Of a stretch of DNA of 64,000 bases, positions 7,289 through 36,000 are shown one piece after another. The stretch is taken from positions 372,001 to 436,000 of the forward strand of contig JBAIAA010000603.1 of NCBI GenBank assembly GCA_037893245.1, given 5' to 3'. Numbering within the stretch: the first letter of the stretch is position 1; each line of letters starts with the position of its first letter. Below the pieces are notes generated by a model. The model did no database searches, was not told where the DNA came from, and was given only the letters and a program-made list of their open reading frames with translations. Made by a program: the position numbers and the translations under genes. The stretch is from Crossaster papposus (Eukaryota; Echinodermata; Asteroidea; Velatida; Solasteridae).

Positions 7289-7340
7289 ATGGATATAAAG
7301 TTTGATGGAAAAAGGGCGTTGGTTACAGGAGCAGGAAAAG
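7289..7340 (+). CDS. DCXR: DCXR exon 1 (start codon, Rossmann loop)
   Basis: This 52-nt coding part encodes [17 protein letters not shown] plus the first base of Gly18. The ATG at 7289 has C at -3 and G at +4. A stop lies not far upstream in frame, and this start puts the cofactor loop at the family's usual distance from the N-terminus. The donor is GTAGAA at 7341; phase 1. Confidence 0.92.
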
Positions 7341-10300
7341 GTAGAACTTATTCAACGCTAGGCCTAAAATTAGTAGGCTGGGTAGTACGACAAGTTGACG
7401 GGCATGACTAGACCGAGTTTACTGGCCTCTAGTTTATAGTTATCTAGACCCAATAATTGGGGCGTTTTTACTCCTTTTTCGAATTTTGGATTTTGTCTGT
7501 CGTTCTACGCCCCAACCGTTGTAAAGCATTGTGCCAATTAAAAAAGAAGTTGTGACCACAAAAGTTGCCAAAAACATGCCAAATACTTGACAATGTATTA
7601 GACCCAATAATTGGGGCGTTTTCACTCCTTTTTCGAATTTTGGATTTTGTCTGTCGTTCTACGCCCCAACGGTTGTAAAGCATGGTGCTAATTAAAAAAG
7701 AAGTTGTGACCACAAAAGTTGACAAAAACATGCCAAATACTTGACAATGTATATTGGAAAGCGCACACTGGCTTCTATACATGTTAAAGAAAAACTGTTA
7801 TGGCTTTATTGGTACTCACGGTTATTTGGGGTTGCAAATCCGAGCAATTTTGACCAGCTTTTCAAAACAATGATGCCTATAACGTCGCGGTCTATATAAA
7901 CTACATAGACGTCCCGACAGCACCCGACTCACGTAAAGAGCACACTATGCGAAGACGGGGGACACGACAATGGCTTTTCGAGCGACCACCAACGACTGTT
8001 TTATTTATGGTGCAAGAGCGCAGGCTTGCATCGCTGCACTGTATAGCGCGCATGCGTGTGCGCGCGTAGCGGTACTTGTACAAAATAATGCAAATTCGTA
8101 TTGAACCGGGCCTGGCTGGCACACGATCAGGGGCCAATTTCACGGAGCTGCTAAGCACAACAATTTGCTTAGCACAAAAACATCTTGCTCATTAAAAACA
8201 ATTTATCAGCCAAAATTCTACGTGTTTTTTATGCTAAGCAAAAAACCAGCCGATTATCAATCAAAAACAATAAAGATTACGTGAAAATTTGGTCTGTAAC
8301 CTTGTTTTTACCAAGGACACATTTTCATGCTAAGCAAATTTTTGTGCTTAGCAGCTCCGTGAAATTGGCCCCTGATCGTGTGCCAGCCATCAGCCCGGTT
8401 CAATACGAATTTGCATTATTTTGTACAAGTACCGCTACGCGCGCACACGCATGCGCGCTATACAGTGCAGCGATGCAAGCCTGCGCTCTTGCACCATAAA
8501 ACAGTCGTTGGTGGTCGCTCGAAAAGCCATTGTCGTGTCCCCCGTCTTCGCATAGTGTGCTCTTTACGTGAGTCGGGTGCTGTCGGGACGTCTATGTAGT
8601 TTATATAGACCGCGACGTTATAGGCATCATTGTTTTGAAAAGCTGGTCAAAATTGCTCGGATTTGCAACCCCAAATAACCGTGAGTACCAATAAAGCCAT
8701 AATAGTTCTTCTTTAACATGTATAGAAGCCAGTGTGCGCTTTCCAATATACATTGTCAAGTATTTGGCATGTTTTTGGCAACTTTTGTGGTCACAACTTC
8801 TTTTTTAATTGGCACAATGCTTTACAACGGTTGGGGCGTAGAACGACAGACAAAATCCAAAATTCGAAAAAGGAGTGAAAACGCCCCAATTATTGGGTCT
8901 ACTAGTTATCGCTTTTTTAACATTTGGACATCATCTGGCGCTACTAAGGCCGAGGAAGTTAACGTGCATCATTCCAAATCTCTTAAATGTGATTCAAAAA
9001 GTCGCCCAAATCCACACAAAATACAACAAAATACCTTAAAATCACCTAAACAGCCTTCCATGTGTGTCCAAGTACGTCGAGGTGGTCTTCGGGGGTACTC
9101 ACGATCAATTCTTTGCTTGCAAATCCAGGAAATTCGACCCAGTATTCGAGCGACTACTGCACAGTTGCTGTTCACAACCAGGGGAGAATATGGACGTGCG
9201 CGCGCATCATATCGTGGATGTCAGTGACGTAACAGGTCAAAGTGTATCGACCGGTGGTAAACAACAAGCGCGCGGCGCAGCGACTGTTTTATGTCATGGC
9301 ACAAGCTGTACGGTGGCTGCGTGCTGTCATACCCCTCGCGATTGCAAGCATTGTGCGCTATCCCCGCCCGAGAGCGATTGGTGTCTCCTCATGAGATGGG
9401 TGTCTAGGGCATGACCACCATGCTAAGCCCAGGGGTGCACCAGCCTAATTCAAGTCCCATTGAAAACAGTGTAAAATCAACAATGTTTAGGACCAAGTTT
9501 CCTGCACACCAACATCACTGGGGTTTCTCAAACAACAATCAGATTATTGTCTTGGTCTTTATCTTTCCATTTCTTTTCAATTTTTAGTAGGTTAGCGGAT
9601 TACATTTTTTAATATTCACACCAAAAGAAACTCACCTTCCGAAAAGTGATACTTCCGAACGTCTTCCCGAGCCTGCAAGCAGCCATTTTACAAATGGCAT
9701 CCCTCCACATTCTAGGGCAATTACATGTAGGACCCATTTTTCAACCGTAATTTTGTCAAGTCTGCCCTCGGATTGAAGCTCAAAAACCAGGGAGTTGATC
9801 CTATGCTATATTTACACAATCCCACCATTTCTTTCACCAAACGGCATCCGTTTTCAAAAGAAATTGTGGGGGCACATTTCATGCAGATGAGCTCGCGTAG
9901 AAATTCTCCTTTCAATTAGGGTGGTGCACCCCCAGGGGGCCAAATTTGCTAAGCACAACAATTTGCTTAGCATGACAATTTGTCCTTGGCAAAAACAAGG
10001 TTACACAGACCAAATTTTCACCTGATCTTTATTGTTCTGGATTGATAATCGGCTGTTTTTTTGCTTAGCATGAAAAACACGTATAATTTTTGCTAATAAA
10101 GTGTTTACCTGTTTTTAATGAGCAAGACTTTTTTGTGCTAAGCAGATTTTTTTGCTTAGCAGCTCTATGAAATTGGCCCCTGGTTGGACTCCTCCGTTGT
10201 GTACAATGCGACGGAGTCCAGGGTATCAATTTCTCCTGCCATAGCGAACATTTTTACAACAAATTTTTTTTCATATTTTTACCTGATGAAGGAAGCCGAA

Positions 10301-11976
10301 ATCTCGCTTACCGGTACCGGTATGTCTTCCTTGTGTCTGAAATTACAGATCGTCATGGGTTACAAATAGAGAATGTGTCTTTGGGCTACTTATTTACAGA
10401 AAATAAATTTCAAGTCTACGCTTTTCGACGTGAACATTGGGTATGAACTTTCTACGTGCGTGCGCGCGTACCCGGCAGCCGTGCCAGCCTACGACTGATA
10501 AGCCAGCCTCGCGCGTGCACGCGCACGCACGTAGGAAGTTCGTACACTGTACATGATGTTCAGGTCGAAAAGTATGGATTTCCAATTTATTTTCTGTAAA
10601 TAAGTACCCAAATACACATTCGCTTTTTGTAACCCATGACGATCTGTAATTCCAGACACAAGAAAGATGTTTCAGCTTCTTTCATCAGGTAAAAATACGA
10701 AACAAATGTGTTGTAAAATTGTTCGCTATGGCAGGATAAATTGATACCCTGGACGTCAGTCGTAATGCAATGAAGAACGTTGTCCAACCTGGGCTACACC
10801 AGGGGCCTGTTTCACTAAACAGTACTTAGTGGAACGGGACTTAGGACCTCCGCGATGCGTCTTACACTAAGACGGGTCTTACTGACGTCGTGTTCTTGCT
10901 TCAGTTCCACTAAACCGTTCTTTAATAAGTCGCGTCTTTACTAAGTCGCATCTTTACTACGACGCGTTTTTAACAAAAAAAACGTCTCGATTTCGAGTCT
11001 ACGAAGCTGAATTTCGTGACCTTCGACCTGCCAGAAAAAAAGTTTTGCCGCGTCAATTTTCGTCTGCCAGCGAAACAACGAAAGTCATCTGAATTGTCGC
11101 ATTTTAACAGAATTTTGACTACTGTAGGAGAAAATGGGAAAGGTATGGTATTAACCTTTTTCTTAAGACAACATAGAAGTAAAATATTGAAAGTGACATG
11201 ATTTAATTTAGTTAAAATTTGTGATTTGTATGCCGATCGAAGAACCGACTGTTTACAAATACCTGTACAAATGTTGCACAGTGACATGCATTGCATGCCA
11301 GACGGTGTATAATTATAAACATGTGTAGATTAAATGCGACACTCGTCACTTTGACTCCTACAATTATTTTAGGCTCTAACTATAAGCATGGATTTGTAAC
11401 TGTAAATGTGACAATTAAAGCCTAACTTAATAAGACAGTATTAGACTAGAAAGAAGACCTAGGCTTAGTCACTATAATAATCACGGTAAGCCAAGGCAAG
11501 GGCAAGGGTCATGCGGCTCCTGAGCCGAGGCTGACTGATACTGGTCAACAGTTTAGTCAGCATAGCCCTAGGCCAGGCCCTACAGGGCCATTGTTATTGA
11601 AATGAGGGCTTTAGACTTGGTACATACATTAGGAGGCATGCAGCTACTCTAGCTTGGTTCTAGACTTTTAATTTGTGTAAAGTTCCATTTATTTTACATT
11701 TTGATTTTTTTCTGAGCTGAGCCTCGTATCCGAGGCGAGGGGGGGTTACCATTATATTAGTATATTTTATTGAAGTTTTATTCCAGTACACCCCTTCACA
11801 ATTACAGAGTGCGCATGCTCTGACATTGGCCGCCATTGTTTACGAGTGAAAGAGCCTAATAAAGTTTGTTTACTCGCAATTCAAAATGGTTGCCATATAA
11901 AATGTGAAAGGATGTATTAGAATTTACCTTTTTAAATAAGCTTCAGAGTGAAATACCCCCCAAAAATATTGTTAAT

Positions 11977-12026
<50 letters not shown>

Positions 12027-15000
12027 TAGCTATATCATCATGATGTTGGGCAATTCAGAAAATTAAAGCTTTTGTGTGCACTTGATTTAATCTTAATGAT
12101 TAGTAGTCATAGATCAATACCTTTGCATTTTTCTCTAATTTTAGGAAAAGCCTAGGAAAAGAAGCAAGGACTACCAACGGATGGAAATTGAAGCGTTGCT
12201 GCAGTTCGTAGCTTCTAGAAAATATGAGCTGTTTGGCACCGGAGGAAAGGGGAGCAGCAAAGAAGAAAAGGTGAAAGAAAGGTATGGTAGCCTGTTAAAA
12301 AAATTATGGAAAACATGACACTTAGCTCCTTCTTAAAATGTACCCCCCCCCCCCCCCCCCCCACCCCTTATTCCGTCAATATCTAAGGCTACATTAATAT
12401 TTTGGTATTTAAAAAAAAAAGTACAGTTATCCAACTGAAACTTATTTTGCATACCAGTGCAAGCCTGCAAGGGGTCTACATCATGGGTAAAAATCATAAC
12501 ACTAGTGACAGCATGACACAGCCCTACTTATCCTGCAAACCTTTTATCGAGTGACAAACATTTGCAAATAAATGCAAAACGCAACACGCCGGGTGTGCTT
12601 AACAACCCATGTAGACCCCTAATGCATCCAATCCAGATTTTAAAAAGCATTTACTGAAAAAGAAGGCCTAAATTCAAAATCTATCTACTTCCACATTATT
12701 TCTTTGCATATAGAACTTGGAAAAGAGCAGCACGTGCTCTCAGAGCAGCTGGTGGCCAAGAAAGAGATTGGCAGACAATCAGGAAGAAATGGCGGGACAT
12801 GGCTTCAAAAGCCAAAGCACATGCAGCTCCAAGGACAGGTGAGTGTGATTCTAAATAGGGGAGATTATGGTGAGTTGGGAACAGTTTTTAGAGAATTGTC
12901 TAGGCAGCACACCACTAAATAATGTGCTATTTAGTGTTTTGCGGCCTTTGAATAAAACGCTGACAAATTGATCGGACAGACCGTTTGTGCAGTTGGACTG
13001 GTGAATTTCATCAGAATTAAAAACGATCGTATGTGCAAGGATTGTTTAAAAAGGTGGGTTTTCTTTCAGTCCTAGACATTGCACAGAGTATCAAATCAAG
13101 TATCATTGAAAGAATTATAAGCTTAGTTAGGCTACAATTCCTGAACTTATTGTTTTGGAAAGGCAAATGTTAGCAGATTTAGAGCTCTTTTTAAAGGCAA
13201 AACTTTGAAATAGCGGGTCTCCGGAGCAGAACAATAGCCTGAAAAATGGTATTGAGGGCGGCGCATACCCGTACTGCTTCCCAATGTGAGTTCAACCCCC
13301 CCCCCCCCCCCCCCCCCTCCGGAGCCAGTCCTAATTCTAAAACATCTAAACAGAGGAAATATTAAAAGCCCAATAGTCCAAAAATACTTTTGCCTAATTC
13401 TTATTGGTACAATTTCTTCACTTTCCAGGTGGTGGGCCACCCCCAAAGACAAATGACGTTCACGACAGAGTCTTGGCCATTTTAGCCAAGGAAGTCGTCG
13501 ACGGAATTTTGCCAGAAGATGATGCGCCAAATTCACAGGTATTCCTCAAGGAGATTCATAAACATTGAGATATGTGGGGTATGCATGTTTTTGTATCAAA
13601 TTAAAGAGCCCATCATAATCTTTTATTTGATGGGTCTTACGGTGATATTGAAAATTGTTAAATAGCTATGAAGAATCTTGAAAATTGGGTTTAAAATGAA
13701 AAAGGGTGACAATTTGTGTTTTCAACGGGGTCCTGATTGCTTTGACTAAGTTTGTTTTTCAGAACTATACTTTATGAATTTCTATCGTTGTTTTTTTTGC
13801 GAACAGGATTCAGAGGCTACAGATGTCAGTGTGTCCCAAGATGAGAACAGTCATCAAGTCTCTCAAGCCCAGCCTCAATTTGTAGCGCCACCTTCTCAGG
13901 CACATTCTACTCAGCCTCGGTCTCTGTCGTGTTCTGGTACTAGTAGTAGTAGAAATAGTAGTAGTGGTACAACCAGGCCATCTAATACATCAGAAACACA
14001 GAGACCTGCACAGATCAGGCAATTAGAAATACAGGAGGAGTTGCTGAGAATTCAACAGGCTAAATTAAAGGTTAAACAACAACAGGTACAGATAAGCCAA
14101 TCCATTTTACAAGAATTAAAAAATCTCAATAATACCTTCCTAGCAAATCAGCCCACAGTCATGGATCTGCTCATTTCAACTCAACAATAATAATTTTTAT
14201 TCATTAATTAACCCTCTTATGGTTTTACCTTTCAAAACCTTTCAAAATCTGCTTAATGGGCAAAATGGCTATCAATAAGTATATGAACCTTTCAAAACGC
14301 TCCAGAATTTTTTGCTACTGCACTACTACACCTTTCAAAACCTTTTTTTTTTAACACCAGTTTGTTCAGAGAGTTGTTTTACCTTTCAAAACCTTTCATA
14401 GGTTCCTTTTGTCAGACAGCTTTCTCACCTTTCAAAACCCTTCAGTCCAGAAAACTTGAAAGGTTTTGAAAGGTCTGACAGCTCTATGGTAACTGCACTG
14501 TATATAGGAGGGTTAACAACATTAACAGTATTTTAACGTTGCTTCGGGCCTTTTGAAGGCCAAATATGAGCGCCTGATGCTAAATTCATTTCAAGCTTAC
14601 TTGAGTTGAAGAGTTCCCCAGTCTGTGACAACACGGAAAGACTATAGTTACTTACAGAAAACCTTTGATATTCAATGGTTAGACAGATGAGAGCATTTTA
14701 TTATATCCACTTGTTATGTTAAGTTAAAATTTGTGATGTATCATACAACTCCTATATGTTTTGGCTGCTTGCTGCGATCACCAAGTCTGCATTACGCAAG
14801 GTAGAGAATTGTTTTGTCCGAGAAATACACATTTAAATAATAGTAACACTAACACACACTTTCAAAAATTATGGTCCTGTATTAACCCTAACACTCCCAA
14901 ATCCTATAAAATCAATATGATTTTGCACACACCCTAGGGAGTTAGGGTTAAGGTAGAATTTTAACCTGAAAAAGTTAAATACATGACAAGTGAGGGAATG

Positions 15001-18000
15001 CTTTGATTATATCGCACTAAATTGGAACCAACATAAACATTTAGAAAAATTCCCGGACAATTTGGTCTCGAGCCGCTATGGCTGCTGCACCAGGTTGACC
15101 TTGGTAGTCATCTGCTTGATCTGGACGAGGCTAAACAAAGTAATCTTGTGGCTCTCCCATCTCTTTGGCCAGGTTGAATAGAACTGTGCAGGCGACAATA
15201 GTGCGGCATGCATTCTTTGGTTTGACACGAAGCCCAACAGCTAGACACGGAAACTTGGCCTTTATTTGCCCGTTGACCTGCTCTATAAAGACTCGTGTTT
15301 TTGGATGAGCTCTGACAAAATAAAAAGAACGACATTCATTCAAAATGTTAAATGTTGCTTTAAAATCTTAGATAGCGCCTAAAAGGTGGTTTTTATAATT
15401 ACATGTATAGCTATCTAAAGTAGATTATTTATAATTGGTGTCAATGTTGTTCACATAGCAGGTGGTCAGGATATTTATTTCTACAATAATTAGCTTATAC
15501 AAATTGGTTTAAATTTTAAATTTCAGCACAAAAGAGAAGGTCCCGACCATATTATTTGTTTCATGCTGAACATTGATGTAGCTCATACCGGTACCAGTGG
15601 CCAATATTATAAAACTTTAAAATCACTTTTAAAATCAAAATCAACTTTAATCCAATTCAAGTTAGAATGTTTAAGGTGATTTAAGAACTTCAAATTGATA
15701 TTAGATTTTTAGTTGTTTGGTAACTAATAAATTGTATCACTCTTAATTTCCAGAACCAGCTGAAACCCCAAAGCTTGAATGGAGTTGAAGTTGATTTTAA
15801 AGTTTTATGAAATTGGCCACTGGTAATACCTGTAAAAGGTGGTGCCGACGTTGCTTTCTACTACAGTAGATAGTTTGCTATATTTTGTTTCAACATTAAT
15901 ATCTGCACTCTATAGCATAGCAGGTGATTCGACAATCGCCATTGCTATCTTCAGTAGACAGTTTGAAATACTACCAAGAGTACTGCTTGTTTGGGTTGAG
16001 TTTGCAATTTGATTGTATACTTGCCTGTTATAGGCATATTCTGCAGGTGTCCTTGGGTTTAAAATTGGTGTTATGAGCCAAGGCTTGAGTGGGTATCCAC
16101 CATCACCAACGAGGATGCCTTCCTTTCTGCCAGCCTCAAACTCTGCAGCGATGTTGCTGTGTTTGAGGATCCGACTATCGTGGGTTGATCCTGGCCATCT
16201 GGCAACCACATTGGTTATCTTGTATTTTGTGTTGCACATTAGTTGCACATTTATCGATTTTCGCCGCTTTCTATTTACATACACATATGCGTCGTCTCCG
16301 TATCTGTGGATTGGTTGAACAAATTCAGAAGTTGCAGTCAGTTGTTAGAAAATTATGTTAATATGCTACAAATGTTAATATTATAATTTTTCTGTAAAAT
16401 GTTGGCAATAAATCAGCAAAAAGGACATTTGATTCTGTTATTCATTTGAAAATGTCCATTGCAGTAGTATAACTGTAATCTTGGCTATAAATACTTCATG
16501 CCCTACAGCACGTTTCACAAGATGCACAAAGTTGCACAAGTTGCGTAAACAAGTTTGCGTTGAAAGTTGCACAAGTTGCATACAAAAGTTTAACATATTG
16601 CGTAAAAAAAGTTGCGTAAAGAGGTTTAACAAGTTGGGTAATGATTTCAAATAAAATAAGCTTACTTTGCACCCCTCAACAAAACATGAGTGCAATCCAC
16701 GGCACTCACAACTTGGGGCATACCGCTTACAGCATAGAAGTCAGCTTGAGTGGCCGCAACTTCAGCTGGGGTTGTTGGAAATGAAATGATGTCATCTTTC
16801 ATCCGCACAAGAAGACTGTTCACCCGGCGGACAATCCTGCTTGCGCTAGCCTTGCTGATGCCGTGATGGTCACCATGGTTGTTGTGAACGGTGCCACTGG
16901 CGTAGAATTTCAGCGCCGTAAATACTTGCATCCGCCCATCGATGGCATGACTTCTGGATGTTTGCCGATCCAATTGCGGAGCCAAGATGTCTAAAATTTG
17001 CATTACACCTCTTCTCGTAAACCTATACCGCTCGTACATTTCATCTTCATTGTATTTATCCAGAGGATTTTGCCTGTCGCGAAAAACTCGCTCTCGACGA
17101 AGTCCTCTGGCCACCCGATCGCCCAGCAATATTTGCAGATCGGCCATCATCGAGTAACACACTGATTTACTTTAGTAAACAACAACTTTTAAATTTGGCG
17201 CGAAATCGATCACATGATAATTTACACTAAGAACAGTTCCTACGTCCCGTCTCGACGAGACGTAGGCTAAGACCTGTATGCAACTTAGTGAGATGGGTAC
17301 TAAGTGCCGTATGCGTCTTAGTGGTCTTTGTGAAACTCCCGCTAAGATGCATCTTACACTAAGTCCTATAACCGGACTTAAGGATGCTTAAGACGCATCT
17401 TAGTGCTTAGTGAAACAGGCCCCCGGACGGATCATGGGCCATATGTGATCGGCTCTACAAAAAGGTGTCTTAAGTCGCGCGATGCACTATCATAGTATCA
17501 TGTAGTGGCCCGCTCAACGTTGAGAGGGTAAAAATTTCATGCAAATGTAATTTGTATTTGTTGTCATTAATGAAATCTTTAATACCTACAGTTTAAGGGT
17601 TTCATTAAAAGAAATGTTGATTTTGATGAATAAAGTGGCGTGCATAAACTCCTAAAGAAGATTAACATCATCAAGGCAACAGGTCCGGATCCCTTTCCAG
17701 CCCGTTTTTTTTAAAGACATGGGAGAGGAAAGATCTCCTATCTTGTTATCCATCTTTCAACAGTCGTTGAAGTCCGGTAAAATCCCTCATAACTGGAGGA
17801 TTGCAAACATGGTTTCCATAATAAAAAGAGGTGATTGCAGTGAAGCCGCAAACTACCGACCCGTATTTACTCACATCAATATAATGTAAAATACTTGAGC
17901 ATATTATTTGTATGTACATGTAGCCATGTAAAGGATCATTATTAAACTCACAACATTTTATTTTGAAAGTCAACATGGCTTTTGCCCTGGTCGCTCCAAA

Positions 18001-21000
18001 CGGTGAATCACAGCTTATCATTACAACTCATGATCTTGCTGAGGCCCTGGATGACAGAAAGCAAACAGATCCCATCATTCTTGACTTCTCCAAGGCATTT
18101 GATAGAGTACCCTACCAAAGGCTCCTCCTTATTAAAACTATATCATTACGGAGTTCATGGCTCTCTTCTAAAGGGGTTCAACAACTTCATCACCCAAAGA
18201 AGCCAGCGAGTTGTGGTGGATGGCGAAGCTTCGGAGTGGTCATATGTTCTTTCTGGAGTTCCCCAAGGTATGGTGTTATGGCCATTGTTATTTCTCACAT
18301 TCACCAATGATGTTCACCATCAGTTTATTGTTTTATGTACCGTTCTATTAAAAATTGTGGATGACTGCAGAGCTCTTCAAAAAGATCTTGATTCAGCTGC
18401 ATTCTTAGTCAGCCAAATGGCAGATGAAGTTTAACATCGACAAATGCCATGTGATGCTTTGACTACTACTTGGGTGATGATGTACGGACATCAGTTGATA
18501 AACATCCATATCTGGGACTACTGTATCTTTTAACTCCAAACTTTCCTGGAATACACATACAGTATGTGATCACTTTAAAAGCCAACCGGATGCTAGGGTT
18601 AATTAAGAGAAATCTAAGGCACTGTAACCCACGGGTTGAAAAAAAAAAGAAGCTTACATGTACATCTCTCTGGTCAGGCCACATTTAAAATATTGCTCCA
18701 CAGTTTTGAATCCCCATCATCAAACCTCGATTAACCAAGTAGAAGCCATCCAGAAGAGAGCAGAAGGGAAGCAGCCTTCAAAATTAGGAAGTACACAATT
18801 CCCCACTAGCTCATTGCCATAAACAAGGATCACGTACCTGACCCCAATGACAGATACCAGGCTAAGAAAGTACCATCAGTCTAGATACCAGCTTCTCACA
18901 ACCCATTCCTCCAAGGACATCTGTAAGTTCTCCTTCATGCCTACAGCTGTCCAGCGGTGGAATGCTTTTTCTGTACTTTTATGTCATCTCAGCTCCATCA
19001 GTGGGGGTCTTCAGGGCACTTGTCTCCCCCCCCCCCCCCCCCCCACTACTTCTAGCCCAAGGTTGGATTATTTGTTTTAACTTGCACCCTGTACATGTAT
19101 ACGGTATTTTCTGCTCAACCTTCCACCAGCTTCATACATGCACTTTAACCCCAACCCCCTAGGCCTTACTTTGGGCTTAAGAACTGGTACAACAGAATAC
19201 TACTTAGTATTTTGTAGCACTGGGTCTCTCAGTGACTGATGATTGGGTGTGTACTGACAGAGTACAGATACTGCCAACTACAAAGTACTAATAGTGGCAA
19301 TACAGGTCAGTAATACTTAACTGGCAAAAAAAATGCTGTAGTCCAGCCTTGACCCATTGCTGTGTCCCAAGTGACAATTTTCGCTGTACACATGGGCCAT
19401 GCACACTCAGCAAGCAGAGGGACCCAATGCTAAAAAGTACTACGAGTGCAATTAGGGGTGAAGTACCAAATACTAAAAATTGCTACAGGCATTGCACACA
19501 AGTCAGTGAGAGTACTGCATACTACTTTTTACTACTAGTAGTAAAAAGTAGCATTAGGTAGGGTTAGGGTTAAGCTTCCCCTCTGCGTTAATATCCAGAA
19601 GTGGACTTTTCTAAGTATCACCGTAGACGTAGTTGTGTCCTCGTTAGTCAGTGAATGATGTGGACCTGCAGGCCTTGAATTTGGTATTAGGGCAAAACCA
19701 CTTTGGCCTTGAATGAAGCAACATTATGGATGCTACCAAGGCCAGTAGTTACATGTAGGTCACCAAGGCCAAATAATATCTGAGAATCTGAAAATAATAT
19801 CTGCATCATCAAAGTAAAACATTGATGACCTTAATCATCCCGCCCCTATTGTTTTTGTTCTGATTAACTTCAAACAAGACTAAGAGCCCCAGACTTTCAG
19901 ATGCAGGAGCATATACTTGAGAATGTATAAAATTTGCCAAACCTTGAATATCGCCGAGTCAGCAGTTATTCCGGTAGTGCACAGAGAGTTCCAAATGTGA
20001 AGCAGACGGGAACTGTTAAGTTCAGTATTGATAACATGTACCGTATGTAGATATCATACAACGTACTTATAAATTATAAGTGTCATGTTGTCAATCCTGA
20101 ATGAACAATTTGTATCAAGATGAAAAGCTTTTTAACCATGCTAACCTACAAAAGTACAAGGGAATTACAGATTCCTTAACCCTAACCCCCTCACTGCTTT
20201 TTCTAGAAAGTATCCTGAATCTGCCACAGTCCACCAAGTTTGGTTTGCAAAAACTGCTGGTGTCCTGAGTCCATCAAACTCCACCAGTATGCATACTGAA
20301 GATGTCAGCAGAAGTTGATGGACTCTGGCGGATTCAGGATACCATGGTGGCATACACAAAATTGCAGTGTGTTGTGTTTCTCCATAGAGTCCTTCACAGT
20401 CCATCACCTAAATTTCTGAATCCTCAATCCATCACACTCCTCCAGTAACGCTAGGCTTAAAATCCTCAATCCATCACACTCCTCCAGTTTGTTCAATATG
20501 GAGGTATCCTGAATCCGCTAAAATCCTCCAAAACAGGAAATGGATTTTTATGGACTCGGGGTGGTTAGGGTTAAATTTTAAAAAGTTTTAGAATGTGATA
20601 TAAATATGGTAAGTAGTTTACAACTTAATACTGCATCTTCTTGGCAAACTCAATGTTGATTATGGCATTCACATCCAAAGTTTTTAAGCAAGCAAACTGA
20701 TTCTAAAATGGGGGCCATTTTTAAATTTAAGACGTTTCATCCTATAGAGATCTATATATTAGCAAGTCAATAGTATGGTTTTTGAACTCCTTAGCATAAT
20801 AAATGTGGGTATTGACAACAAAATAGAGTTTATATACGAAATTCCAATCCTGGGTTATAAAACATTGAAATTCAAGATGGCTGTCAACCAGTGAGATGAT
20901 ATTACTCAATACTCGGTATCTGTAACTCCTTGGCTTACTAAATTGAAGTACCGGTACATGTAATTGTCAGTAAAATTAACGTAAGTAAAATCAAATAAAA

Positions 21001-27000: not shown

Positions 27001-30000
27001 GCCAATTTCACGGAGCTGCTAAGCACAAAAATTTGCTTAGCACAAAAAAGTCTTGCTCATTAAAAACAGGTTACCAGCCAAAATTCTACGTGTTTTTCAT
27101 GCTAAGCAAAAAAATAGTTGATTATCAATCAAAACCAGTAAAGATCACGTGAACATTTTGTCTGTAACCTTGTTTCTGCCAAGGACACATTTTCATGCTA
27201 AGCAAATTGTTGTGCTTAGCAGCTCCGTGAAATTGGCCCCAGATCACAAGTAAGTACCCATCCGCGCACTTACCTGCTTGACAATTTATGGGTACTTACT
27301 GCGATCACCACTGTACATGTAGTCCGTACTCCGATTGGCTGGCTGACTTATTTGGCATAATGTACATCGCGCATAATCATGTATGCACATAGTCCGGTAC
27401 AATAAAGTACATCACCGGGGGGATTTTGATTGGCCGATCCGTCAAGTCGGATTTACTTCACTGACATGATGATATGACATCACGTTGATGCCGATCGCGG
27501 AACGACAACCAGATGAGGGCGCCCTATATCTAAGGCCAACATAGCATGCACATAATTATTCAGCCGGATTGACGAAAGCAAATTGGTAGTCTTAACTCCA
27601 TGGTAAGCCCGACTTGGGTCAAGTCTAATTCAATAGTTGATTTTCAGACAATCCTGGCCAAAATGGATGGGACACATGACATGACTATCCCCCCCTCCCC
27701 CCCTCCTCCCCCCCCCTCCCCCCTCCCCCCTCCCCCCCCCCTCCCCCCCCCCCTCCCCCCCTCCCCCCCCCCTCCCCCCTCCCCCCCCCCCCCTCCCCCC
27801 CCCTCCCCCCCCCCCCCCTCCGAATCAAGTCAAGTCAAGTCGAGTCAAATTGAGTCGCAAATACCGATATTTGAATACTATACAATAACTAAACACGTTA
27901 CAGAAAGTTTCTACGAGGACTAAGTACTATGGAAATCGTGCTTTCTCAGTTGTTGCTCCCATGGTATGGAATGATCTTCCATCAAACATTCGTACAGCCC
28001 ACAGCTATGAATCTTTTAAGTCATTGGTTAAAACTCATTTGTTTCGTTCTTATTATGGTAGTCGTTGTTTACTTTAAGTTTTTATTCTTCTTGTTCAACT
28101 TTTTAACTTTAACTTTTATTGTCACTATGTACAGTGTGCTGAGATAATTGTATGTGGTGCACTTTAAACAATAATTGATTAATTGATTAGTATCATGGAG
28201 GAGGGAAAACAGACTGTCGCTGTACATGTATGTATACTATACAGTACTTAAACATAATTATACACTTAACATTAAACGTGACGTGAACATATAAACCGGC
28301 ACTGGCGTATGGAATCGTTGCAAATATTTTGGGGGACTCAAGTCGAGGCGAGTCATTTTGATGAAGGACCCAAGTCGATTCATTTGCCTGCAGTGACTCG
28401 AGTCGAGTAGAGTCATTTACCCATCGGGACTCGAGTCGAGTCGCCAAAAAGTGTGACCCGAGTCGAGTCTTTGACTCAAGTCATTACAACTAAATGTCAA
28501 CGTATCGGTACATAAGTATGTGTATTTATTTTAACAGGCATTGGGAGAGATACAGCCAAGATGCTGGCCCAATGTGGGGCTGAAGTATTTGCGCTCAGTA
28601 GAACTCGAGAAGACCTGGACAGCTTGAAGAAAGAGGTACGCATCATACATGCAGGCTATCAAGAAGTAGACGTAAAAAAAAAAGGTTTTGCTACTAAACT
28701 GTCGTGTGCCAAGGAAAGTACACCCATACATGTGTACGTTATGCACTGTTGTCAATTGTAATCCCGGCCCTAGGGGAACCGAGATTAGTGGGCACTTGGC
28801 CGGGCTGTAAAATTGGCCCAGTGTGATAGCCCCGGCCACGTCCAGACTACCGCCCGGCCGGGCTGGGCACTTTTTTTTTGTACTCAGTGTATGTATCCCC
28901 GGCTATACCCTGGCATACAGTGCAATATTTCACAAGCTCTCCGCTCAAGCTCTCCGCTCAAGCTCTCCGCTCAAGCTCTCCGCTCAAGCTCTCCGCTCAA
29001 ACTCTCCGCTCAAGCTCTCCGCTCAAGCTCTCCGCTCAAGCTCTCCGCTCAAGCTCTCCGCTCAAGCTCTCCGCGCAAGCTCTCCGCGCAAGCTCTCCGC
29101 GCAAGCTCTCCGCGCAAGCTCTCCGCGCAAGCTTCCCGCGCAAGCTTCCCGCGCAAGCTCTTCGTGCAAGCTCTCAGCGCAAGCTCTACGTGCAAGCTCT
29201 TCGCGCAAGCTCTACGTGCAAGCTCTTCGCGCAAGCTCTCCGCGCAAGCTCTCCGCTGCAACTTTCCGCTCCAGCTCTCCGCGCAACTTTCCGCTCCAGC
29301 TCTCTGCTTCGCGCAACTTTCCGCTCCAGCTCTCTGCTCCAGCTCTCTGTTCCAGCTCTCTGCTCCAGCTCTTTGCTCCAGCTGGCATTGCGTGCACGAT
29401 GTCCATGCACAGCTGTGGGAATGAGTCGCAGTACAGTCGTGTCAAAGGTTATTCATTCACATTTGGCACATTCGCGCGCTTATTCAGGGCTAGCTAGGGC
29501 ATCAATGTGTGTATGTACACCGCATGGTTAACGTTGCGCTATACAAAATCATTGACAACTCGGTCGCCGCGGCATATAGTGCGAGTGGCGTCAAAAGTAT
29601 CTCATCCTCGCAAGCTACGTATTGCTAGCCAGGGACGCACCGGGTTTTTTTTCTCGGAGTTGCACAATACATGTAGCTGTTAACAGGGTATAACCATACC
29701 TGCCGAAGCAATCATTTTTGAACAGCGAACTTTGTATCGCTTCTGATTTTAACGTTGAAAATTCTTTCGAGATAAAAAAAGAAGGAAACAAAACCAATTA
29801 TATAATTTTCCTTTGCTGATTGTACGGTACAAAATCAACATTTTATTCACAATTTAAAGTCGTACGCGGCCTCCGACCCCCCTCCCCCCTGTCGCACGCT
29901 TTGTACGACCATTAAAATGTTGAAAACTTTGGACGGCCCCTTACACCTTTAAGAGGACATCACGTGTCACGTGGTGATGTCATCATGACATCCGATTAAT

Positions 30001-33000: not shown

Positions 33001-36000
33001 CTCAATTCATTTATTTACTTAAAAATCTTGAAAAAATATTCTTCGAAATAAATATGATTATGAAAATTTTAAACGAATCCCCCCAACGCCAAATAATTGG
33101 TCTATGTAAACGTAAATATGATTATGAAAATTGAAAACGAATCTCCCCAATGCCAAATATTTTTTAATTGGCCTATGTTACGTAAACGTGCATGTTTATG
33201 ACTAAAGCAATCTCACCTAAAAAACGCGTCTAAACGTTGGCACTTTGCTGCCGCTCCAGCCATATCTCCTTCGTGCATTTTTTTTTGTCTGTTGTGAGAT
33301 GGCATGATGATGGATCAATATTGAATTTATAGGTTCTGATAAAAATTTCCAAAATTTTGGCACCGTAGTCTGATTTTGAGAATATGACATTTCCACGTGC
33401 GCGGAAAAAAACGCAAGGAAAAAACATAGACTGGATCCCGCTCCCGGCCCGATTCCCTACAAATGCATAGCTCAATAGACAGAATCAGTGCAAAAATGTG
33501 TAGGGACCTGTAGCCAGTCTATACATGAGAGTAGTCTGATGCCGTGTTTTTAGTAGTAAACAACTCAACTACGTTTGATATGGTTGCCATGCCACGTTTC
33601 TCCACTGCAAGTACTCATATGGGTGCACCAGTCCCATTGAAAACAGTGTAAAATCAACAATGTTCACGACCAAGTTTCATGCACACCGACATCACTGGGG
33701 TTTCTCAAACAACAATCAGATTATTGGTTTGGTCTTTATCTTTCCATTTCTTTTCAAATTTTAGTAGGTTGGCCAATTACATTTTTTAATATTCACAACA
33801 AAAGAAACTCAAGTCCCGAAAAGTGATACTTCCCGAGCCTGCAAGCAGCCATTTTACAAATGGCATCCCTCCACGTTCTAGGGCAATTGGGACCCATTTT
33901 TCAACCGTAATTTTGTCAAGTCTGCCGTCAGATTGAAGCTCAAAAACCAGGGAGTTGATCCTATCCTTTTTCAAAAGAAATTGTGGGGGCACATTTCATG
34001 CAGATGAGCTCGCGTAGAAATTCTCCTTTCAATTAGGGTGGTGCACCCATATGGTGCATCATTTTGGGGGAATATTTTGGACGGTCGCGCTTTGCGCGGC
34101 ACCCGCTAGCTGGGTGGAATCGTAACTTATACACCTTGTTGACGTCCTAAAAACATAATGGATTGTATGACAAACAAACCAAGAACATTTCGAGCTCACG
34201 AAAATATTTTTTTCGAGCGCACGAAATCATTTCGAGCTCACGAAATATTTATACTGGTTGTTACACGTACTACACGGTTGGTAACCTGACTGTTATGTAT
34301 TAATGCTGGGCGCTCAACGCTTACCATCGAATAGTCTGTGACCCATTTTAATTGTATACAGTCCCTAGTTTTTCATACACACGACTTGTATACCTTTTTA
34401 AATCTCCTTTAGATAGGGTCTTATAGAAAAAGCAAGTACTTCAGTACTCGCGCGCAGGATGCGTGGCGCTTTAGGCAAGCATCAATGCATTATGAAAACT
34501 AGTGTGCAGGATCAGGAGGGAGCGTACGCTACATACATGTACGTACGTCGAAACAATTTGAACTTTATAATGGGACACACAACGTTAACATTATTTTTAA
34601 TAACACTCTCGAATACATAATATAATGGAATAAATGGAAAAGGGCACGACGGCCAAGTGGCCCTAAGATACGAGCGTTTTAAAATGGGCTTCACGGCAAT
34701 TCACTGGGGGCATCGTGGCAATGGCCGCTGGTGGCCGCTGTAGAGGTTGAGGCAGAAATTTCCAAAAATGTGTCTCTTAACACTTCTTTTGCAGTGACCT
34801 TCTTTTTATTGTTATTTTCAAAATGACAGCATACCAAAAGGAATAGTTTCACAGGGTGTTTTGTGCCATTAATTCATATCTTGAAAATAAGTAAGCTTTC
34901 AAACAGTGATTTGGTTGAATTGGTTACTGTTTGTGTAGGTCAAATGCTTAATTCATTTGTGTTCTTTCAGGTGCAATCCATTCATACAATCTGTGTGGAT
35001 CTGGGAGATCGTCCAGCAGCCAAAGAAGCCATAGAGAATATAGGAGCCATCGACCTTCTGGTCAACAATGCTGCCATCGCTGCCTTGCAACCATTCCTGG
35101 AAGTCTCTCATGATCAGTTTACAAGGTGAGTAAAGTCTCTGTGTACCCTTAACAGTGAAAAAAAGAGAGGACTAATTTGGGGTCGTCTAGTGCCGGATCG
35201 AGAGGGGAACCCCCCTTTCAGCCATGAATTAATGTTATACAGTTGAACGCCGCTATAACGAACATCACGAGATGTACCGTAATTCCCTGCGGACAAGGCG
35301 CTCGGCGGTTAAGGCGCAGGTCCCTAAAATCACCCCTAAAAAATTCAAACGTCAACAGATAAAGCGCACTGCCGAATAAGGCGCATGCTTGAACGCGCCC
35401 AGAAGAACACCAGGCGCCACCCGGTGTAGGTACATCGCCACAAAGGGGTCATTTTGTTGCCATAGAACGATCCCACTATTCCAAGCAAGAATTTGCTGAG
35501 TACTTGAGTTTATCTGGCACGCAAACAATGTATGAAAACTTCAAACCAGTACAGTCACAATATCGCACGAGGTTTACTTTGCCGATACATGTATCACTGC
35601 ACTGCAGTATAAACTGCATGCATACATGTACATAGCACATGCAGCGATCGCGTGCGTGCCCAGGGAGGGGTATCCCTAATTGCTCAATTGCGACACCCCC
35701 TAGTCTTTTTTCCAGTCGTTGTGAATGCTCCGCGCTGTGTAGTTCGGATGGTGAATTGCATGAAGCCGGAACGTAGACGAAAAAAACGTTTAGAAAACGG
35801 CCACATACATTGTAGTATTGTACAGGCTAGCTTTTTATCGCTGTTGTACGCGTCATGCAACGCGCGCTGCCGAGTGCTGTGGCGCTACTAGGATCAGAGC
35901 TAGAGAGAGCGGCCGCTCGTAGTCGTGCGGCAAATATTACGGGGGCGATTTTGGACCATTTCCTATTTTTAGGAAATGCATCGACACAATATCGTAAGAA

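Follow-up and report, generated by a model that had tools for sequence, protein, structure and literature searches.

Transposons of the NuwaI group, which belongs to the PHIS superfamily, are described as having 5′-CWG-3′ target-site copies and terminal repeats (TIRs) that usually begin with GGG (Han et al. 2015, PMC4482050). In the reconstructed zebrafish element Harbinger3_DR, the ORF1 protein is reported to bind the TIRs and to be needed to bring the transposase into the nucleus (PMC2836001). For the rice PIF/Harbinger elements mPing, Ping, and Pong, cuts with 5′ overhangs at the target-site copies have been proposed by Gilbert et al. (PMC4561436). In piggyBac, the excised ends bear a 4-nt TTAA overhang once their hairpins have opened, and repair of the empty donor site is seamless (PMC7351741).

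The 64,000-nt stretch of Crossaster papposus DNA analysed here (the window, C603:372001-436000) contains a transposon with two genes, one Myb-like and the other encoding a DDE transposase, inside an intron of a host gene. Its features, in window coordinates, are as follows.

near 7289-7340, plus strand: DCXR exon 1
10800-10802, plus strand: left target-site copy, CAG
10803-17422, plus strand: whole element, Myb gene first, 6,620 bp, delimited by the exact TIR match and by comparison with the empty allele
10803-10818, plus strand: left TIR, GGGCCTGTTTCACTAA
10848-10973, no strand: left subterminal array of degenerate 16-mers, among them 3.4 tandem copies of period 16 at 10919-10973
11134-11142, plus strand: Myb exon 1
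12145-12281, plus strand: Myb exon 2
12714-12838, plus strand: Myb exon 3
13429-13538, plus strand: Myb exon 4
13807-14190, plus strand: Myb exon 5, with the stop at 14188-14190
14208-14516, no strand: nested TTAA-flanked miniature element of ~310 bp, found only in the window copy among six long copies
14886-14951, no strand: second nested insert, likewise TTAA-flanked, 66 bp if one TTAA is counted, again only in the window copy of the six
15041-15130, minus strand: rest of the 30-residue transposase tail and stop, 3′ of the early stop, still coding in 5/5 readable siblings
15131-15311, minus strand: transposase exon 3 (E265), with an early TAG at 15133-15131
16025-16303, minus strand: transposase exon 2 (D204), with a GC donor
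16666-17150, minus strand: transposase exon 1 (D152)
17275-17405, no strand: right subterminal 16-mer sites, one exact, at 17390
17407-17422, minus strand: right TIR
17423-17425, plus strand: right target-site copy, CCG (CTG in the empty allele)
near 28537, plus strand: DCXR exon 2
near 34827-35126, plus strand: DCXR exon 3

The TIR is perfect over 16 bp and has GGG at its start. The subterminal 16-mer AAGACGCATCTTAGTG has one exact occurrence in the element and three at ≤2 mismatches; at ≤4 mismatches, nine of its ten matches fall near the two ends (10848-10970 and 17340-17405), and 200 mononucleotide shuffles of the element gave a mean of 0.57 matches. The subterminal arrays are real but degenerate. 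An earlier note on this DNA, made from the letters alone, had placed the element at 10802-17423 with terminal repeats and matching subterminal arrays. The element is indeed there and the repeats stand at both ends, but each of those limits takes in one base of a target-site copy, and the 16-mers, which do cluster at both ends, are degenerate copies with a single exact one among them. The ~310-bp miniature element nested just past the Myb stop occurs in at least 23 further genomic places at 93-96% identity among the matches listed. An inverted repeat with 41-nt arms, 88% complementary, occupies 15592-15825 in transposase intron 2 and is possibly another nested miniature element. A search of window positions 9000-20000 against Rfam gave no matches.

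The five Myb exons join at GT-AG sites into 254 open residues, in which a profile search finds a Myb/SANT domain (PF13873, E 3.9e-10); against solved structures, the protein gave one weak match only (E 0.55). The three transposase exons splice to 314 residues with D152, D204, and E265 (numbered from MMADL), and PF13359 matches over the whole profile (E 1.2e-32), and two related DDE models match too; comparison of this protein with solved structures gave no matches. Both exon models agree with those of the earlier note, which had described a five-exon Myb-like protein and a three-exon transposase with the same triad, each open once spliced. The second transposase intron has a GC donor that is kept in all five long sibling copies. 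Transposase intron 1 (16304-16665) looks lineage-specific, and an intron gain inside the transposon is possible; this intron holds AAGTTGC-type repeats at 16528-16636. For 25 listed relatives (52-57% identity; start ≤12, end ≥254), the match is unbroken across residue 162, the position of intron 1, and ends at residues 254-266, near intron 2; in several relatives of ~40% identity, the match continues through both intron positions.

Across the genome, the exact 16-bp termini of the family have CNG flanks in 25/29 cases, the other four being on C325, C417 (two), and C544, and CNG-flanked termini read CAG or CTG in 26/27. Each paired copy of the family is likewise flanked by CNG, not by TWA. Empty sites read CTG (window) or CAG (paralogues of the C433 and C162 sites); the exceptions to CWG are the right copy of the window element (CCG) and single paralogues of the C343 and C181 sites (CGG). 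The 16-bp TIR lies within the 12-61 bp of NuwaI elements, and the transposase has no domain beyond the DDE domain and is accompanied by a Myb/SANT protein. The CNG flanks, the GGG start of the TIR, and the gene pair thus fit the NuwaI type of the PHIS superfamily. Of PIF/Harbinger in the narrow sense, the element has the two genes but not the TWA target, and a TWA-target Harbinger was rejected on the CNG flanks. The Harbinger of the earlier note therefore holds as a two-gene Harbinger-type element, reassigned to the CWG-target NuwaI type.

The window empty site, CTACACCTGGAC, and the Harbinger3_DR target, AAACACCWGGTCTTT (PMC3016246), have ACACCWGG in common. The insertions on C162 and C181 share 14 + 10 bp of flanks. 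They are separate copies (L009 and L010), the first in a dispersed repeat and the second at the end of an inverted repeat, and their sites have ~21 bp in common, TTTTGTGGGAGCAGGTCACAT, which suggests a site preference beyond CWG. Other copies of the C162 repeat continue through the site uninterrupted, with CAG in 4/4 paralogous sites fetched; the C433 copy sits in a satellite array, of which the 3/3 paralogous units fetched read CAG. Three repeats paralogous to the C343 site read CAG, CGG, and CTG, while the C181 site has an inverted copy of itself ~150 bp upstream (C181:304110-304181, 92%), which reads CGG. Searches for allelic empty sites with one flank each for C433 and C264, and with the transposase-side flank in contig orientation for C343, found only repeat paralogues. 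Copies of a sister family on C675, C501, and C758 (L078-L083) occupy the same point in another repeat (AAACACC-W-GATGTGG), two in one orientation and the third reversed.

The translated pieces of the host gene, once joined, match two reductases, carbonyl reductase 1cyd (3.5e-27) and L-xylulose reductase 1pr9 (E 8.2e-27); DCXR, in preference to another close reductase, is a candidate name for it in our reading, as in the earlier note. Exon 1 lies before the element and exons 2 and 3 after it, which puts the element in DCXR intron 1, as the earlier note had it; the transposase gene runs antisense to the host gene. Contig C267 carries this locus without the element as GGCTACAC-CTG-GACGGATC, both flanks being joined at one CTG. 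Both flanks of the element match C267 at 99%. The left alignment, of 1,735 bases, has 8 substitutions, and the right one, of 3,352 bases and with 41 gap bases, has 11; the substitution divergence is 0.38%. Among the matches listed, the stretch of DCXR exon 3 is near-identical only on C603 and C267, where it is colinear with the flanks; the other 38 listed matches are partial and show ≤83% identity. C267 is best read as the other haplotype, and if so, the insertion is apparently heterozygous, that is, polymorphic; in principle, C603 and C267 could represent a recent large duplication rather than alleles. Because the element is present in only one of two matching chromosome copies, it probably moved recently. 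The empty-site search that the earlier note had proposed thus turned up a polymorphic insertion, and of its suggestion that the element was active or recently so, the recent mobility of the family stands on the empty allele, but the window transposase has lost its tail (see below).

Around DCXR exon 1, the haplotypes are set apart by several insertions: ~728 bp (8339-9066) of the window haplotype are absent from C267 (L033), which in turn has ~2.9 kb extra near window position 7698. The left flank at 10178-10801 is a long inverted-repeat element, found in other places at 82-87% identity, and the transposon stands at its right edge. The right flank at 17634-18763 is a high-copy sequence, found in many places at 84-87% identity, and contains pieces that we take, from their motif, to be reverse-transcriptase-like.

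Sibling copies were sought in the whole assembly (1.02 Gb, 1,841 contigs). The whole-element search, in which 40 of 2,715 first-look candidates were scored, gave at least 89 matches. The comparison covers six long copies, those of the window, C162, C181, C433, C285, and C203. Both frames are open by the window exon model in the window copy and in three others (C162, C181, and C433), which also keep the transposase tail. The C285 copy has 11 extra bases in Myb exon 2, the C203 copy begins at the end of its contig and its Myb gene is damaged, and the shorter copies on C264, C343, and C632 are broken. Splice sites are conserved in the siblings, the GC donor included; the exon-4 donor of the C162 copy is GT on direct reading. 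Against the window copy, the five siblings show 98.3-99.2% identity in coding sequence and about 95-97% in introns. The near-identical copies for which the earlier note had advised a search were not seen among the matches listed, where the closest sibling has about 99% identity in coding sequence and 96-97% in introns; copies of that kind would have been the sign of a burst, and their absence is a point against the reading preferred below. Complete copies had been thought rare, but a transposase search scored 127 matches among 1,768 candidates, many with open frames, so complete transposase genes of this kind do not appear rare genome-wide. The C285 copy (L012) is a mosaic, C433-like in its first part and C162/C181/C203-like after a switch around the last Myb exon, which suggests gene conversion or recombination between transposon copies.

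It is at the end of the transposase that the window copy departs from its siblings. At 15133-15131 it has TAG, where 5/5 readable siblings have a glutamine codon followed by 30 further residues (exon 3 of the C264 copy was not found, and C343 and C632 were left out of this comparison). Both copies read of the sister family, ~55% identical, carry the tail and end in AREEIINNFFG. A similar C-terminal end was recognised by eye in five of six distant relatives (e.g., RRNLIANLHF, RARLIADHF, RALLIENRF, RDEIANHI), while the sixth, L091, has a different end and is probably frame-shifted; these relatives were picked because their matches run near the query end, and as L088 and L089 are near-identical, they amount to four families at most. 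Thus, the catalytic domain is whole, yet the window copy, apparently intact in the earlier note, is not fully so, because the conserved tail is missing: against the full length expected of an autonomous element, its transposase stops 30 residues short. The copy is probably crippled, if the conservation of the tail is a guide to its importance; the early TAG could also be an assembly error. For the transposase, pN/pS between the window copy and five siblings is 0.12-0.22, and 0.27 when pooled over all 15 pairs, ratios by which the gene is under purifying selection across copies. For the Myb gene, the value pooled over 10 pairs, with C203 left out, is 0.89; against C433 and C285, the window copy gives 0.21-0.22, and against C162 and C181, 1.12-1.26, all from few changes, so that the evidence for constraint on this gene across copies is weak.

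These observations bear on what the window copy is and how it came to be on one haplotype only. An open Myb frame and a constrained transposase would also be expected of a domesticated gene pair that serves the host from within the DCXR intron, an idea that is hardly credible and was rejected given the empty site in the same assembly and the dispersed siblings, to which the terminal repeats and the truncated transposase of the window copy may be added. It is also very unlikely that the empty site is an excision product, the element having once been on both haplotypes and having left C267 precisely. PIF/Harbinger elements generally do leave precisely via their target-site copies (PMC4561436), but the site on C267 reads CTG, whereas precise repair of the window copy should give CAG or CCG; an excision, if it happened, would still mean recent activity. 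As to autonomy, the window copy might be active as found, with the 30 missing residues dispensable, since the insertion is young, the catalytic triad is present, and PF13359 is matched end to end in the window protein and in the tailed C162 protein alike. This is unlikely in view of the tail kept in the five siblings and in two copies of the ~55%-identical family, and of the similar end in most of the distant relatives. The locus is best described, as judged from sequence, as a real NuwaI-type transposon that was recently inserted and is apparently heterozygous, and in which one gene is open while the other is clipped.

The two target-site copies of the window element are unequal, and so are those of several other copies. 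The pairs below are in element orientation (Myb end/transposase end).

window: CAG/CCG (empty site CTG)
C162: CAG/CAG
C181: CAG/CAG
C433: CAG/CTG
C285: CAG/CAG
C343: CTG/CAG
C691 and C106: CTG/CTG, with the same flanks, counted once
C264: CAG/CTG, rearranged, set aside
sister family, C263: CAG/CAG
sister family, C758: CAG/CAG
sister family, C675: CAG/CTG
sister family, C501: CTG/CTG
sister family, C61: CCG at one end, CCAG at the other end, set aside because of a C-run
sister family, C774: 5′ end not found

Unequal pairs thus make up 4/11 clean cases in two families (6/13 with C264 and C61 included). Chances are about even that they arose by ordinary mutation or by recombination between copies and have no bearing on mechanism. 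Seven of the clean pairs are equal, the C264 copy is rearranged, that on C433 is in a satellite array, and the mosaic of two lineages on C285 indicates that copies do recombine or convert; moreover, C675 and C501 have a repeat flank in common and may stem from duplication of a single insertion, which would weaken the C675 case. For the window itself, recombination between copies was rejected, as its flanks are contiguous in one empty site. Mutation, too, seems a poor explanation there, because both middle bases are unlike that of an allele with flanks diverging by 0.38%, for which simple multiplication gives a chance of ~1.4e-5; for the other unequal pairs, mutation is less firmly excluded. 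It also speaks against an ordinary origin that in each of the four clean unequal pairs the difference is confined to the middle base. This pattern would be accounted for, though we advance the idea tentatively and hold it to be doubtful, if CWG-target Harbinger-like transposons carried their own 3-nt CNG overhang and were ligated without gap filling, so that the middle base can be that of the donor. The transposase would make 3-nt 5′ overhangs as it cuts the target-site copies of the donor, as proposed for mPing, and the excised element could keep its CNG overhang; this would pair at C and G of a new CNG site whatever the middle base, the gap could be closed by ligation, and resolution of the middle-base mismatch would afterwards favour either the donor or the target. 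By analogy, the behaviour of mPing argues against donor carry-over and for an ordinary origin, for mPing flanked by TCA/TCA gave TTA or TAA in 45/46 insertions in the experiments described in PMC4561436. In a limited literature search for naturally unequal target-site copies in Harbinger-like elements, the nearest case was that of Gilbert 2015, with constructed unequal copies. The pattern of target-site copies was unexpected and is testable. Were the carry-over real, a transposase family unrelated to that of piggyBac would insert in a piggyBac-like way, free of DNA synthesis, and every copy would retain one base as a record of its origin. With carried-over overhangs, one could read from genome sequence alone part of the chemistry by which PIF/Harbinger superfamily elements excise and insert, and would have a marker for tracing transposition lineages.

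Whatever the source of the unequal copies, the element is very probably a NuwaI-type cut-and-paste PHIS transposon that was recently inserted in DCXR intron 1 and whose transposase has lost its tail. By analogy with zebrafish Harbinger3_DR, its Myb protein would bind the element ends, perhaps at the subterminal 16-mers, and, as reported for that system, might bring the DDE transposase to the ends and into the nucleus. The transposase would cut at CNG and insert at ACACCWGG-like sites. The window copy may have landed in the intron at around the time the two haplotypes separated or after it; the tail may have been lost since, or the copy may have arrived tail-less with help in trans from a full-length sibling. 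The family is ordinary as an element but informative: a heterozygous insertion is datable against its empty site, several full-length siblings are at hand to compare it with, and through a transposase that is naturally tail-less, the role of the conserved C-terminus can be put to the test.

Compared with the known systems, the element resembles NuwaI transposons (PMC4482050) in its CWG target copies, GGG TIR start, combination of a DDE transposase with a Myb/SANT protein, and animal host. It differs from them in its length, 6.6 kb versus an average consensus of ~4.5 kb, and in its five and three exons; target-site copies that are often unequal at the middle base, as in the window family, are absent from the description of the group in the available part of that paper. 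With Harbinger3_DR it shares the two genes and a target, AAACACCWGGTCTTT (PMC3016246), close to the window empty site; unlike Harbinger3_DR, the window copy is natural and unreconstructed, has lost its tail, and is known here through its sequence. Like mPing, Ping, and Pong, it has 3-bp target-site copies in which the middle base is free (PMC4561436), whereas the target of the rice elements is TWA and, in the same source, donor carry-over was not seen (TTA or TAA in 45/46). The comparison with piggyBac concerns mechanism only and implies no membership, since piggyBac has an unrelated transposase and a 4-bp target.
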